A stretch of 64,000 nucleotides of DNA from Sialis fuliginosa (Eukaryota > Arthropoda > Insecta > Megaloptera > Sialidae), in the NCBI GenBank assembly GCA_961205875.1, contig OY540809.1, positions 33,678,267 to 33,742,266 on the forward strand, read 5' to 3'. The notes beneath the pieces were generated by a model, which searched no databases, had not been told where the DNA came from, and worked only from the letters and a program-made list of their open reading frames with translations. Below are positions 11,182-62,510 of this stretch, piece by piece. The translations under genes and the position numbers were made by a program. How positions within the stretch are numbered: position 1 is the stretch's first letter; every line of letters begins with the position of its first letter.

Positions 11182-11512
11182 ATGTCCAGTATTATAAAGT
11201 AGCTCGCAAAATTTGCTAGCTTACAAGCACTCTCAAATGGGGTATTAATTCTGTACTAGTATCTATGGATTAGCTATGGAATTTAGAGCAGTGACACTTC
11301 AACTAATTGTAACACAGTTGGCATCTTGGACCATACAAAATAATTTTCATAATATCACCACTGTTTTAATACCGTTAGTGTTTACCTACAACGCGTGCGC
11401 GAAACTTGTCAAAGTCTTCAACAAACTCCAAAAGAGCTGTCATATAAGATATATCATTTGAAAGTGCTTGCAAGCTAGTAAATTTGCGAGCTCCTTTATA
11501 ATACCGGACATG
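11182..11512. mobile_element. MITE with ~60-bp inverted arms (ATGTCCGGTATTATAAAG ends)
   Basis: The left end ATGTCCAGTATTATAAAG and the complement of the right end ATGTCCGGTATTATAAAG extend into matching GCTCGCAAA and GCTAGCTTACAAGCACTCTC-like blocks. Relative of the element at 5131. It lies 5 bases before the target duplication of the large foldback. The 61-codon ORF inside is incidental. Confidence 0.75.
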
Positions 11513-11532
11513 AGACTTTCTAATGGGTTCCG

Positions 11533-11893
11533 GTCAATTTATCGTAAACAGTTTATCGTAAACAGTTTATCGTACAACAGTTTATCGTAAAACAATTTAC
11601 CGAACGAACAATTTATCGTATGAACAATTTACCGTAAGAACAATTTATCGTAAAACAATTTATCGTAAGAACAATTTATCGTATGGACAATTTACCGTAA
11701 GAACAATTTATCGTAAAACAATTTATCGTAAGAACAATTTATCGTATGGACAATTTACCGTATGAACAATTTATCGTAAAACAATTTATCGTAAAACAAT
11801 TTATCGTAGAACAATTTATCGTAAAACAATTTATCGTAGAGCAATTTATCGTAAAACAATTTATCGTAAAACAATTTATCGTAAAACAATTTA
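11533..11893 (+). repeat. Minisatellite, left arm of the foldback
   Basis: Over 20 tandem copies of a 15-17 bp unit, consensus near AACAATTTATCGTAA, with variants CAGTTTATCGTAA, CAATTTACCGTA and ATGGACAATTT. Spacer length between CGTA and CAATTT varies by 1-3 bases. Units of 15 bases keep one frame open (repeated QFIVK), which is a by-product and not a gene. Confidence 0.9.
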
Positions 11894-12509
11894 TGTATTA
11901 TTACTGTAACAGACTCCACTGGACTTTCTTATACGTATTAAGGTCAAATCAATTATGAAAATATTATATAATATATTATTATATAGAAACCTTGTTTTCT
12001 AATTTTATCAATTAAAAAAAATGTACAGATGCGTATTAAGTTAGATTTTAGGCCCAAATTATTAAAATAATAAATACACATTACATATAAATAATATATA
12101 TAAACCTTATTTATTATTTAATCAATTAAAAAAAAAATGTACAGAAGCGTATTGAGTAATTATTGAGACCCGTGTATTAAACTAATTAATAAACTCACAA
12201 CTCGCCCCCTGTCACAGATGGAGGGTTGTAACTGGTCTCATTGGATCCGGCGGGAAAAATACTATAGGATTCTAGGGGGATGGGGGGCAAAACAACCCTC
12301 TATCTAGCACAGGAGTCGAGATATTTACGATTTTCTGTAATGAATACCATAAGTAGCGAAACAGAAAAATTCAATATTTACAATAAATACTGCATATAAA
12401 CATAAGATATTATTATTTAATTTAATAGAATGAAATAAAAAGTTCAGGCATGTATTAAGTGATATTTTAGGCCCGTATTGTTAAAACAACAAATACACAT
12501 ATATTAAAT

Positions 12510-13534
12510 AGCTGCTACCCGCGGCTTCGCTCGCGTAAATTTTGTAACCCCCATCTTAATGATATTTTATTTTGGTCGCCGGATCGAGTGAAGCTAATTA
12601 CATTCAACCACTCGTATGTAAGAGTGTGAAATATAAATTTTTTCTATATTTTAGTTTTCATTCATTATGCAAAATCGCAAATATCTCGACTGCTATGAGA
12701 GATAGATTTTTTCTTCTTCTATATATCCCATGTATAAATACCCGACCCCTGTGGTATTTTTACCGCCGGATCTAATAAAACTAATTACAACCCTTCATAT
12801 GTAACAGGGGGTGAAATGTTTATTACTAAAAAAAAATTTCTCATACAAATTTTTCAACCCTTTTGCAATCCCTTAAGGTTTTAATTTTCGGGATACAAAG
12901 TAGCCTATGTTCTTCCTCGGGATGCAAGATATCTCACTACCAAATTTCATCAAGATCGGTTTAGCCGTGAACAGGTAAAAAATAGACAGACTGAGAGATA
13001 CACTTTTGCATTTATATTATAAGTCTTGACTTCTATGTAAGATAAGGGGTTGTTTTGTCCCCCTAATAACCCCTCTGCCGTAGTATTTTTCTCGCCAGAT
13101 CAAATGTAATCAATTACAACCCTTCATATGTGACAGGGGGTGAAATATTAAATTTTTCTTATTTTTTGTTTTCTTCCATTATACAAAATCGTAAATATCT
13201 TGGTTTCTATGCGAGATTGAGGGTTGTTTTCCCCCTGAAACCTCCATCCCCGTGGTATTTTTCCCGCCGGATCGAATAAAATCAATTACAACCCTTCATA
13301 TGTAATGGGGGGTAAAATATTAATTACTAAAAAAAATCAAAATTATTCCACCCCCTTGCAATTTCTTAGGGGTTGCATTTTCAAGATACGAAGTAGCCTA
13401 TGTCCATCCTCGAGATGCAAGCTATCTTACTGCCAAATTTCATCAAGATCGGTTCAGCGGTTTAGTCGTGAAAAGGTAACAGACAGACAGAGAGACAGAC
13501 AAACACGCTTTCGAATTTATAATATTAGTATGGA
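12510..13534 (-). mobile_element. Helitron-like element, two-unit copy, nested in foldback
   Basis: On the minus strand it begins TCCATACTAATATTATAAAT (complement of 13515-13534) after an A, and ends with the CG-rich hairpin CGCGAGCGAAGCCGCG, GGTAGCAG and CTAT near 12510. A Helitron end should be CTAG or CTAA, so the last base is altered. The body consists of two related ~510-bp units joined near 13027, each with CAAATTTCATCAAGATCGGT and ATATTTACGATTTTG. It interrupts the left arm of the foldback at 12509. No Rep/helicase coding sequence. Confidence 0.7.
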
Positions 13535-13659
13535 TTTATTAATATTATATATGTACCTACCTACATTTTGTATTAAAATTGATGAACCTTTTTTAAATCA
13601 AATATAGTTGTAAATTGAATTAACTTTGTCACTTTTAGATGCACGATGCTCAGATCACA

Positions 13660-14562
13660 GAGACAGATGTACAAATTCATACAACAATTAAACAAAATAT
13701 CATTTAAAATTACGACAATGTTAATTAATAATTAAATAAATTCTTCTAATATTTATACAATTAATACAATAAAATACCTATGTAGGTAAAAATATTGATA
13801 TATCATTAACTTTAAATTTTAAATTTTAATGTATTACCTATGTTATGCCGAATATTAGTCATTCGAATGCTGTGATTGTTTGTCTTCAATTTTTTTGACA
13901 AATTTATGTACGAAAATTTTAATTATTTATTACTTTAGAGTTGTGCATAATTTTCATTCGTTATGTTCTTTATATTTCTTTTTTGTCATATTTTATTCTT
14001 CATATTAAACACATTTACTTTAAAATTTTAAATGGCCACTGACATTTAAAAATAATAAATAAAATATAATGTATCCATAGTTACGATATTTGCAATTAAT
14101 TTAGTAGATGCTTAAAGCGCATTATATGTAAACGTATTTTGTTTATTTTCTCCTCTTTAACATATTTTTTTCAAAAATCAGACACGGGTTCATGGTTGTC
14201 AATTAACCAAAGTATTTGAAAAAAATTAAAAAAATCTAATATCGGTTTTCGTTTTGATACTTTTTTACATCAAAACTTTTTTTTTCCTTTTTTTTTCATT
14301 TTTTTTAAATCTGAAATTTGAACCTTACATTATATCGCCCAAGGAATATAAAAAAAATAATAAAAAAATTCTAACTTTTTTTTTGAAAAATTGGGGGCCC
14401 CTTGTTACCCCATTTATAAACTTTTTCAAAAAAGGCCCACTAGTTGTTATTTTTTACCCCCAAGGAATGTATATACCAAATTTTAAGTTTCTCCGATGAG
14501 TGGAAATGGTCAAAAAAATGATTGTGAGTCAGTCAGTCAGGGCACTTCGTTATATATAGTAG
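13660..14562 (+). repeat. ~900-bp dispersed repeat, copy A
   Basis: Matches the complement of 18738-19680 almost throughout, including TCAGACACGGGTTCATGGTT, AAATTGGGGGCCCCTTGT and the end GGGCACTTCGTTATATATAG. The 81-codon ORF (14254-14499) recurs in copy B with few changes but is K/F/N-rich and sits in homopolymer runs, so I do not call a gene. It is inserted in the interrupted left arm of the foldback. Confidence 0.75.
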
Positions 14563-14689
14563 ATAGAAACCTTGTTTATAATTTAGTCAATTAAAAATAA
14601 TTGTACAGAACCATATTGAGTGATTTTTGAGGCCCGTGTATTAAACTAATTAATAAACTCGCCTCTGTCACATGATGAAAGAATGTAAT

Positions 14690-14980
14690 ATAACATTGTT
14701 TTACATTGAACTGTTTACCATAAATTGAACGCAAATCGATTAAATATTATTCAATGTTTCTAAATAGTAGGTATACGTGAATTTGTTATTTTAAGAATAC
14801 AGGCCTATATTATCACTTGATATACATCTGTACATTTTTAAAATTTATTTAATTTAGTAATAATATCTAAGGTATATTATTATTGTGTAGGAGGTGGATA
14901 TTGATTTTGTTTCTTTTTCACTATTTATTCATTATAGAAAATCGTAATTAACACGTCACCTATACGAGTAAGGGGGTTGT
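14690..14980. other. Centre of the foldback, with a relic terminal sequence
   Basis: Mostly unique AT-rich sequence. CTGTTTACCATAAATTGAAC followed by GCAAATCG (about 14708-14734) matches the right end of the element (CTGTTTACGATAAATTGACC, GCAAATCC) with two changes. This looks like an old second element end inside the present one. Confidence 0.55.
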
Positions 14981-14984
14981 TTTT

Positions 14985-15793
14985 AATTAGTTTAATACAC
15001 GGGACTCAAAAATCACTCAATACGCTTCTGTACAATTATTTTTAATTGACTAAATTATAAACAAGGTTTCTATATATGTATGTTTGTTATTTTAACAATA
15101 CAGACCTAAAATATCACTTAATACATGCCTGAACTTTTTTTTCATTCTATTAAATTAAATAATAATATCTTATGTTTCTATGCAATATTTATTGTAAATA
15201 TTGAATTTTTCTGTTTCGCTACTTATGGTATTCATTACAGAAAATCGTAAATATCTCGACTCCTGTGCTAGATAGAGGGTTGTTTTGCCCCCCATTCCCC
15301 TAGAATCCTATAGTATTTTTCCCGCCGGATCCAATGAAACCAGTTACAATCCTCCATCTGTGACAGGGGGCGATTTGTGAGTTTTTTAATTAGTTTAATA
15401 CACGGGCCTCAAAAATCACTCAATACGCTTCTGTACAATTATTTTTAACTGACTAAATTATAAACAAGGTTTCTATATACATATGTGTATTTGTTGTTTT
15501 AACAATACGGGCCTAAAATATCACTTAATACATGCCTGAACTTTTTTTTTCATTCTATTAAATTAAATAATAATATCTTATGTTTATATGCAGTATTTAT
15601 TGTAAATATTGAATTTTTCTGTTTCGCTACTTATGGTATTCATTACAGAAAATCGTAAATATCTCGACTCCTGTGCTAGATAGAGGGTTGTTTTGCCCCC
15701 CATCCCCCTAGAATCCTATAGTATTTTTCCCGCCGGATCCAATGAAACCAGTTACAACCCTCCATCTGTGACAGGGGGCGAGTTGTGAGTTTA
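14985..15793 (-). repeat. Two tandem ~405-bp units in the right arm
   Basis: The block from TAGTTTAATACACGGG through ACAAGGTTTCTATATA, CTATAGTATTTTTCCCGCCG and CCATCTGTGACAGGGGG recurs with spacings of 403 and 408 bases (starts near 14988, 15391, 15799). The left arm contains the same units inverted. Blocks such as GGGTTGTTTTGCCCCCCAT are shared with the Helitron-like elements, so this unit is probably Helitron-derived. Confidence 0.7.
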
Positions 15794-16090
15794 TTAATTA
15801 GTTTAATACACGGGTCTCAATAATTACTCAATACGCTTCTGTACATTTTTTTTTTAATTGATTAAATAATAAATAAGGTTTATATATATTATTTATATGT
15901 AATGTGTATTTATTATTTTAATAATTTGGGCCTAAAATCTAACTTAATACGCATCTGTACATTTTTTTTAATTGATAAAATTAGAAAACAAGGTTTCTAT
16001 ATAATAATATATTATATAATATTTTCATAATTGATTTGACCTTAATACGTATAAGAAAGTCCAGTGGAGTCTGTGACAATAATAATACAT

Positions 16091-16447
16091 AAATTGTTTT
16101 ACGATAAATTGTTTTACGATAAATTGTTTTACGATAAATTGTTTTACGATAAATTGCTTTACGATAAATTGCTTTACGATAAATTGTTTTACGATAAATT
16201 GTTCTACGATAAATTGTTCATACGGTAAATTGTCCATACGATAAATTGTTCTTACGATAAATTGTTTTACGATAAATTGTTCTTACGGTAAATTGTCCAT
16301 ACGATAAATTGTTCTTACGATAAATTGTTTTACGATAAATTGTTCTTACGGTAAATTGTTCATACGATAAATTGTTCGTTCGGTAAATTGTTTTACGATG
16401 AACTGTTTACGATAAACTGTTTTACGATAAACTGTTTACGATAAATT
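16091..16447 (-). repeat. Minisatellite, right arm of the foldback
   Basis: Inverted counterpart of 11533-11893: repeated TTTTACGATAAATTG units of 15-17 bases, with the same mix of variant units in nearly the same mirrored order. Confidence 0.9.
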
Positions 16448-16511
16448 GACCGCAAATCCTTTCTAATAGCTTCTCGGAATGAATTCACGCTCTTAATGTA
16501 TTTATGTAGGA

Positions 16512-18737: not shown

Positions 18738-19680
18738 ATCTACTATATATAATGAAGTGCCCTGACTCACTGATAATCATTTTTTTGACCATTTCCACTC
18801 ATCGGAGAACCTTGAAATTTGGTATATATATTCCTTGGGGGTAAAAAATAACAACTAGTGGGCCTTTTTTGAAAAAGTTCATAAATGGGGTGACAAGGGG
18901 CCCCCAATTTTTCAAAAAAAAAGTTAGAATTTTTTTATAATTTTTTCTATATTCCTTGGGTGATATAATGTAAGGTTCAAATTTCAGATTTAAAAAAAAT
19001 GAAAAAAAAAGGAAAAAAAAAGTTTTGATGTAAAAAAGTATCAAAACGAAAACCGATATTAGATTTTTTTAATTTTTTTTAAATACTTTGGTTAATTGGC
19101 AACCATGAACCCGTGTCTGATTTTTGAAAAAAATATGTTAAAGAGGAGAAAATAAATAAAATACGTTTACATATAATGCGCTTTAAGCATTTACTAAATT
19201 AATTGCAAATGTCGTAACTATGGATACATTATATTTTATTGATTATTTTTAAAAATTTTAAATGTCAGTGGCCATTTAAAATTTTGAAGTGAACAATAAA
19301 ATATAACAAAAAAGAAATATAAAGAGCATAACGAACGAAAAAATATGCACAACTCTAATGTAATAAATAATTTAAATTTTCATAAATAAATTTGACAAAA
19401 AAATTGAAGACAAACAATTACAGCATTCGGACACAATTCGACCAACATTCGGCGATAGATATGTGTTCCCGGTACAAATAAAAATTAAGTAGGTATATAA
19501 TGACATTTTTTAAATCTTAAGTCATTGAATTATCAATATTTTTACTTTCATAGGTATAGGTATTTTATTATATTTATTTGTAATCATAAATATCAGAAGA
19601 ATTTATATAATTTCAAATTAACATTGTAATTTTAAATGATATTATTTTAATTGTTGTTTGAAACTGTATATCTGTCATCT
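18738..19680 (-). repeat. ~900-bp dispersed repeat, copy B
   Basis: Inverted sister of 13660-14562. It begins CTACTATATATAATGAAGTG and ends near 19680. Near-identical in the central 500 bases, with more divergence outward. The terminal CTACTATATATA is common to both, but I could not define a target duplication. Confidence 0.75.
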
Positions 19681-21360: not shown

Positions 21361-21445
21361 GGTGTAAATTTTTCGAAACACAATTTTTCGAATCACAATT
21401 TTTTGAATCAAAATTCTTCGAATGAACAATTTTTCGAAAAATTTA
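21361..21445 (+). repeat. Short minisatellite, CAATTTTTCGAA unit
   Basis: About five 15-16 bp units of the type ACAATTTTTCGAATC. The unit resembles the foldback minisatellite (CAATTTATCGTAA) in length and layout, so the two arrays may be related. Confidence 0.65.
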
Positions 21446-21515
21446 AGTTTTATTGTTCAAATTTTAATTAGTTAATAAAATATTAAGTAAAGTAATATTT
21501 GGACATTTTACGATA

Positions 21516-22469
21516 TCCATACTAATATTATAAATGCGAAAGTGTGTTTGTCTGGCTGTTTTCTGTTTGTTACCTTTTCACGGCTAAACCGCTTTACCGA
21601 TTTTGATGAAATTTGGCAGTGAGATAGCTTGCATCCCGAGGACGGACATAGGCTATTTCGTATCTTAAAAATTCAACCCCTAAGAAATTGCAAGGGGGTG
21701 GAAATTTTTTATTTTTTTTTAGTAATTATTATTTTACCCCCCGATACATATGAAGGGTTGTAAGTGGTTTTATTCGATCCGGCGGGAAAAATACCACGGG
21801 GGCGTAGGTTTTAGGGGGCAAAACAACCCTCTATCTCGCATAGGAGCCGAGATATTTACGATTTTGTATAATGAAAGAAAACTAAAAATAAGAAAAATTT
21901 TATATTTTACCCCCTGTCACATATGAAGAGTTGTAATTGATTACATTCGATCTGGCGGGCAAAAATACTACGGAAGAGGGATTATTAGGGGGACAAAACA
22001 ACCCCTTATCTTACATAGGAGTCGCGACTTATATTATAAATGCGAAAGTGTATCTCTCAGTCTGTCTATTTGTTACCTGTTCACGACTAAACTGCTTTAC
22101 CGATTTTGATGAAATTTGGCAGTGAGATAGCTTACATCCCGAGGACGGATTAAGGCTATTTCGTATCTCGAAAATTCAACCTTTAAGGAATTGCAAGGGA
22201 GAGGAAAATTTTTAATTTTTTTTAGTAATTAATATTTTACCCGTTACATATGAAGGGTTGTAAGTGGTTTTATTCGATCCAGCGGGAAAAATACCACGGG
22301 GGCGGGGGTTTTAGGGCGGAAAAACCCCTCTATCTCGCATAGGAGCCGACACATTTACGATTTTGTATAATTAAAGAAAACTAAAAATAAGATAAATTTA
22401 ATATTTTACCCCCTGTCACATATGAAGGGTTTCGAAATCCACGCGAGCGAAGTCGCGGGTAGCAGCTAG
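21516..22469 (+). mobile_element. Helitron-like element, two-unit copy, A^T insertion
   Basis: Begins TCCATACTAATATTATAAAT after A (21515). Ends CGCGAGCGAAGTCGCG hairpin, GGTAGCAG, CTAG, followed by T (22470). These are hallmarks of Helitrons: 5' TC, 3' hairpin plus CTRR, insertion between A and T without duplication. The body is two related units joined near 22027, each with GATTTTGATGAAATTTGGCA and ATCCGGCGGGAAAAATACCAC-like blocks. Non-autonomous, no Rep/Hel frame. Same arrangement as 12510-13534. Confidence 0.85.
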
Positions 22470-62025: not shown

Positions 62026-62510
62026 AACTTCCTAATAGGAAGTTATTGTAATGGGTCCAAAAAACAAAACCAAAAATAAACATATTTTTATGTTTCAGGT
62101 TCACTATAGTATATTTACACTATTTTTAGAAAGATGTGTGTGTGTGTTTGTGTGCGTGCTATTTTGGCCTGCACGAAAAATAAAAATTGTTATTGACTCC
62201 GTTGGGGTGTCAATCGAAGCGTCTTGACGTGAATACGATCTAAAAAAAAATTTCATTGAATTCGATCCAGCCGTTTTTTGTTAGAATAAAAAGATTGCAA
62301 AAAGTTGATAATTTCTTGAAAAAGATTTTTATCAGATCTAATTTATAATATATAATTTATTTAATAATTATAATTATATAATTTATTTAATCAATTTAAA
62401 AAATAGTCCAGATTCGTATTAAGTGATATTTTAGGCCCCTACTGTTAAAATAACATATTCATATAAACTATATGTAAACCTTGGATATAATTAATTTAAA
62501 AAATATTTTA
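62026..62510 (+). repeat. TE fragments
   Basis: AACTTCCTAATAGGAAGTTA, TTGTAATGGG starts a repeat with a GTGTGTGTGTTTGTGTGCGT run and GATTGACTCCG-like blocks up to about 62290. ATTAAGTGATATTTTAGGCC (62419) is shared with the ~400-bp units of the large foldback (12462, 15514), showing that this unit exists outside that element. Confidence 0.5.

Follow-up and report, generated by a model that had tools for sequence, protein, structure and literature searches.

The 64,000-nucleotide stretch of contig OY540809.1 of Sialis fuliginosa that was analysed here (positions 33,678,267 to 33,742,266, hereafter the window) carries a foldback transposon of 4,934 bp at window positions 11525-16458, boundaries that were set by aligning both ends (Table 1). 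Its inverted arms (11528-12502 and 15481-16455) show 98.6% identity over an alignment of 976 columns. Each arm opens with a minisatellite of about 360 bp which, according to tandem-repeat analysis, has a period of 15 and is present in 23.5 copies. When the unit CAATTTATCGTA was searched for with at most two mismatches, 61 matches were obtained in the window; shuffled sequences gave a mean of 20.6 (standard deviation 4.2), and none of the 100 shuffles reached 61. These data bear out the foldback element with minisatellite-led inverted arms that an earlier model-made reading of the letters (the sequence-only reading) had described. The exact 8-base duplication which it had seen outside the ends is actually a 9-bp target-site duplication, CTTTCTAAT, and the element boundary shifts by one base. 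Inside the duplication the left end begins with the hexamer GGGTTC and the right end with the unlike hexamer GATTTG; the identical CGGTCAATTT comes next at both ends. The sequence common to both ends next to the hexamers is CGGTCAATTTATCG.

The sequence-only reading had also noticed nearly identical arms around a heavily disrupted interior, and this description holds: the disruption consists of a 2,051-bp nested insertion with ATAG on either side, and the uninterrupted counterpart of its site is present in three other copies (L013, L025 and L017). The insertion is made up of two dispersed repeats, parts of which recur on the other strand at 21515-22468 and 18738-19676 with 84-86% identity, and it contains the longest open frame of the window copy (122 aa). 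In the shared arms 13 of 973 columns differ, 11 of them in the outer minisatellite-bearing part and two in about 594 inner columns. The centre of about 320 nt is common to the family and holds a vestigial GATTTG-type terminus. From its nucleotide 74-78 or so onward, it is about 70% identical to the arm unit of about 408 bp, a resemblance that would make it the leftover of an older arm.

Table 1. Parts of the foldback element and of its insertion site, in window positions
Feature	Position	Strand	Remark
Target-site duplication CTTTCTAAT, left copy, 9 bp	11516..11524		
Left tip GGGTTC, outside the shared arm	11525..11530	+	One end of 22/22 complete copies
Left inverted arm, outer part	11531..12502	+	Starts with CGGTCAATTT
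Left-arm minisatellite, 15-16-bp units	11535..11894	+	Consensus CAATTTATCGTA plus 3-4 bases
Nested insertion of dispersed repeats in left arm	12512..14562		ATAG at 12508-12511 and 14563-14566
Left arm, inner part, after nested insertion	14567..14659	+	
Family-wide centre, about 320 nt	14660..14980	+	Inverted relative to tips at 3/20 informative sites
Vestigial internal GATTTG-type terminus, inside centre	14697..14737	-	
Right-arm tandem units of about 408 bp	14980..15898		2.3 copies
Right inverted arm, outer part	15481..16452	-	
Right-arm minisatellite, 15-16-bp units	16089..16448	-	
Right tip, GATTTG when read inward	16453..16458	-	
Target-site duplication CTTTCTAAT, right copy, 9 bp	16459..16467		

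The genome (392 Mb, 20 contigs) was searched with 200 bases of the left end, and 40 of 195 candidates were scored. The best match at each of these 40 places showed 98-100% identity to the query, and many copies were found at different flanks. In twenty 10-kb stretches 21 complete elements could be identified, which bring the total, with the window copy, to 22; as L022 and L023 have common flanks, these stand at 21 distinct sites. The two (C14:1059055 and C14:325629) are a single insertion, with an identical 9-mer, ATACCTCAC, that is present twice through a segmental duplication or through a duplicate in the assembly. Every one of the 22 complete copies had a GGGTTC tip and a GATTTG tip, and the target-site duplication measured 9 bp in 19 of them and 8 bp in the other three. 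Arms of about 1.5 kb aligned at 95.5-99.1% in nine of the 21 elements compared; the aligned outer arm is shorter in the remaining elements because unit numbers differ or parts are absent. The number of minisatellite units, counted across copies, ranges from 12 to 24 per arm, and that of the units of about 408 bp also varies, with a maximum of ten (L017). This 6.6-kb copy (C8:169406-175970), with ten units in one arm, is a case of satellite-like growth within an arm of a foldback element.

Ends of the family were counted genome-wide as exact 20-mer matches. There were 79 GGGTTC-type and 77 GATTTG-type ends, and the reversed-pattern control gave none. Within 20 kb of each other, 66 of each kind can be joined into unlike inverted pairs, with a median spacing of 3,302 bp, which leaves 13 GGGTTC-type and 11 GATTTG-type ends unpaired. 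Independent occurrence of the two arms, which the sequence-only reading had named as evidence against a single element, is therefore not found for most ends, since an exact partner is present within 20 kb of 66 of the 79 GGGTTC-type ends. The other 13 have none, at least three of them owing to a changed base in the partner; such a change is the cause of the unpaired ends in L012, L022 and L023. Among the exact ends genome-wide, true like-like tip pairs were absent at distances up to 12 kb; the one like-like pair listed consists of the outer ends of two neighbouring complete elements, each with its own duplication. The ends are often clustered at one contig end, with densities from 0.65 per Mb on contig C14 to 0.03 on C6, and the outermost 3 Mb of the contigs, which make up about 30.6% of the genome, hold 36 of the 79 (p=0.007; C4 taken as 36 Mb).

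Having one tip of each kind is the most interesting point of this element. Free exchange of tips would be expected to give about half like-like pairs, and with the 66:0 pairing a rule of end polarity becomes open to direct test. It is conceivable, if somewhat doubtful, that the transposase requires two unlike 6-nt tips, GGGTTC and GATTTG, as left and right end, that is, a strict end code in six bases. Statements on published systems refer, here and below, to the excerpts of the cited papers that were consulted. In Tm1, an element of root-knot nematodes, a duplication is missing from the only element whose two tips are alike (PMC3169594), which fits the tip-polarity reading. If the rule is true, the family would represent a Mutator-type element of eukaryotes in which six bases strictly specify left and right end and, at the same time, a natural record of arm exchange.

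Since polar tips stand on otherwise palindromic DNA, each copy can reveal arm conversion and flipping of the centre, and a single chromosome-scale assembly offers dozens of very similar copies for reading such exchange. With the tips as reference, the orientation of the centre was scored at 20 distinct sites having one (the first copy in L021 is without a centre). It was forward at 17 sites and inverted at three (L012, L015 and L026). When compared with the forward centre of L013, gaps being ignored, the inverted centres showed 99.7% identity in L026 (1 gap column), 99.3% in L015 (40 gap columns) and 94.6% in L012 (17 gap columns). Sixteen of 20 elements were usable for arm comparison, L012, L021, L022 and L029 being dropped. 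Arm divergence was 0.97% within elements versus 1.34% between elements, and none of 5000 re-pairings gave a value as low. Recombination and conversion between arms would explain both the inverted centres and the likeness of arms within an element. The exchange probably stops before the tips, or else its like-tip products are immobile. Centres inverted relative to the tips were not described in the excerpts of the Galileo and Tm1 literature searched, which is no proof of novelty.

A sister element of 8,952 bp was found on contig C7 (C7:18227490-18236441). It is flanked by the 9-bp duplication TATTTTATT and has arms of 97.3% identity over 1,523 columns, which contain a 15-bp terminal minisatellite, ACAACTCATACCAAG, and 107-bp repeats. 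Its 482-aa open frame has a FLYWCH domain (E=9.9e-13) and the transposase domain of Mutator-like elements (MULE, E=2.1e-11), and about 30 bp past the stop codon there is a tandem array of 134-bp units. The arms of this sister are 69-78% identical to those of copy L013 (best E=1.4e-63; the reversed sequence gave no hits at 1e-5), and they match those of the window copy with E values down to 2.1e-63, in the non-coding arms only. Homology to an element encoding FLYWCH and MULE domains is thus found through the arms of the C7 sister. Moreover, an end of a third family, with the unit ACAATTTTTCGAA, adjoins a MULE frame on contig C5 (L030). Its array is 76% identical to the window-family minisatellite (E=4e-13), and the frame shares 35% identity with the C7 protein across 223 positions. 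This other minisatellite was present on only one side of the C5 copy within the 10.8 kb examined. Within the window, about five 15-bp units of the AATTTTTCGAAACAC type at 21367-21441 are a degraded end of this C5-type, minisatellite-armed family, and a fragment at 62341-62508, 73-76% identical to the arm units, is an older relic of the window element's own lineage.

The arm homology, together with the MULE frames of the sister and of the third family, places the window family with Phantom-type MULEs via its relatives, not via its own enzyme. The duplication lengths (9 bp in 19/22 and 8 bp in 3/22) also fall within the 8-10 bp of the Phantom type. The element is best regarded as one copy of a young, non-autonomous foldback DNA transposon family, most likely of the Mutator superfamily and the Phantom type, a reading to which we assign a probability of about 0.85. 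The C7 sister, with its open FLYWCH-MULE frame in the same genome, supplies a candidate enzyme. In the proposed mechanism a FLYWCH-MULE transposase acting in trans would bind the terminal minisatellite, bring a GGGTTC end together with a GATTTG end and insert the element with a 9-bp stagger. The long arms would recombine and convert with each other, by which centres would flip and arms become homogeneous, and copies losing tip polarity would fail to spread.

Where a transposase might lie was examined by a search for MULE frames in the genome, which gave 10 hits, and by one with the C7 protein as query, which also gave 10. For seven of the MULE hits the closest exact end is 56 kb away or farther, and two are on C13, which has no such end. 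Among the frames related to the C7 protein, only the C7 frame was both stop-free and within complete arms. The C8 hit lies 2 kb outside a complete window-family element; the C8 copy, 1.4 kb outside a window-family element, was rejected as an autonomous member and is a degraded sister copy. The copy on C11 (2206415-2223491) was likewise rejected, being broken, with no arms in 9.4 kb and over 200 kb away from any exact end. As for the three longest end pairs (9.8, 12.0 and 15.2 kb), of which the 3-kb middles were sampled, two contain other frames and the third another copy's end. The frames in the two pairs, of 966 and 237 aa, belong to what we take to be a BEL-type and a mariner-type element.

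Several points weigh against the Phantom-type reading. The family's own transposase was not found among the 22 copies read and the 10 MULE hits, and the assignment is therefore based on the homology of the arms, the length of the duplication and the architecture. None of the 10 hits is located between exact ends (flanks beyond about 1.5 kb were read for C5, C7, C8 and C11), so that an autonomous MULE copy, for which the sequence-only reading had proposed to search, did not emerge. No long open frame was seen in the copies either, the longest being 67-109 aa in 21 copies, and no search was aimed at P or hAT proteins. The terminal minisatellite of the C7 sister differs from that of the window family. 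This sister also bears identical tips, GGGTTGAG, at both ends, and a tip asymmetry or six-base end code is therefore not general. The own partner was the nearest neighbour for only 8 of 32 arms, and arm conversion is therefore modest. Lastly, the copies were chosen by likeness to the left end of the window element, which favours young ones. The alternative of recent transposition or arm conversion offered by the sequence-only reading stands as regards arm homogenisation, and recent activity is suggested by the low divergence of copies in a sample that favours young ones.

Among the rival explanations, the one that survives best, although it is unlikely, is an independent lineage, moved by another enzyme, that captured or exchanged arm sequence and so has only the inner arm repeats in common with the Phantom sister. 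It agrees with the different terminal minisatellites (CAATTTATCGTAAAA versus ACAACTCATACCAAG) on common inner repeats and with the failure to find an own transposase in the copies and hits examined. However, the duplication length, the GGGTT start, the 15-bp period and the order of modules are also common to the C7 sister. Even less probable is a foldback element of the P superfamily, similar to Galileo and moved by a P-type transposase. Galileo likewise has long, internally repeated arms and arm exchange (PMC3573991), but its flanking sequences are 7 bp, a length seen in none of the 22 copies, and arms homologous to a sister carrying FLYWCH and MULE domains argue against a P-type mover. The 8-bp duplication typical of hAT elements is not the rule either, as this length occurs in only 3 of 22 copies; no search was aimed at hAT proteins. 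That there is no transposon here, only a palindromic satellite or segmental duplication with chance flanking repeats, is hardly credible: the arms are indeed tandem repeats of variable number, up to the ten units in one L017 arm, and foldback arms are able to grow into satellites, as in Tetris (PMC4079207), but 8-9 bp duplications are flush to the same tips in 22/22 copies with 21 distinct flanks.

With regard to the insertion site, the joined flanks (11373-11524 and 16468-16509) seem by eye to contain a short open frame that spans the duplication, as though the insertion were in an exon, and a profile search of them gave no Pfam family above the cut-off. A second copy of part of the left flank stands at 11182-11239.

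The unit string CAATTTATCGTA was not found in the searched literature, and a two-unit minisatellite pattern had no match in viral contigs and genome contigs, from which records of the source genome were possibly excluded. An 18-base terminal pattern in a viral contig (L001), where none of the arms is present, was judged to be chance. The window family is a new family of a known kind. What the sequence-only reading had called the best candidate for an undescribed mobile system is therefore new as a family, while its kind is already described in Phantom-type Mutator/Foldback elements such as Tm1.

Other foldback elements share parts of this architecture. Galileo of Drosophila resembles the window family in its exchange between arms and copies, its arm extension and its chimeric copies, and differs in its P-superfamily transposase (PMC3573991). 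Tetris of Drosophila virilis is also a non-autonomous foldback element, with tandem repeats of about 220 bp inside the arms; these are other repeats, and no 15-bp terminal minisatellite is mentioned in the excerpts (PMC4079207). The animal Phantom MULEs have 8-10 bp duplications, a FLYWCH finger and terminal inverted repeats (TIRs) of 18-613 bp, and a minisatellite follows the transposase open reading frame in aphids (Table 1 of PMC6446971), as it does in the C7 sister with its 134-bp units. Taken with the AT-rich sequence and the dispersed repeats, this aphid trait would suggest a hemipteran insect as host, although the assembly is of the megalopteran Sialis fuliginosa. The MULE of Myzus persicae has 109-bp TIRs. 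From the animal Phantom MULEs the window family differs in being non-coding and in having arms of up to about 1.5 kb, and the term foldback is absent from PMC6446971.

The closest known system is Tm1 of Meloidogyne. It belongs to a Mutator/Foldback family with 9-bp duplications, of which an autonomous member encodes a Phantom-type FLYWCH-MULE transposase and the copies are mostly non-autonomous; unlike 7-bp motifs lie outside its inverted repeat, one of each in 24/39 and 20/22 elements of two species, and its arms contain 1-9 tandem units of about 14 bp, CGATTCAGTATCGC (PMC3169594). The window family shares the 9-bp duplication, the mostly non-autonomous copies, the unlike tips outside the repeat and the short tandem arm units of varying number. 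As compared with the printed motifs of Tm1, its tips are of 6 nt and have other letters, and its unit is CAATTTATCGTA plus 3-4 bases instead of CGATTCAGTATCGC, present 12-24 times per arm instead of 1-9. Moreover, it adds the second tier of units of about 408 bp, the centre with a vestigial terminus and the inverted centres, and the arms of the copies read agree at about 99%, in contrast to Tm1, which has been called senescent.

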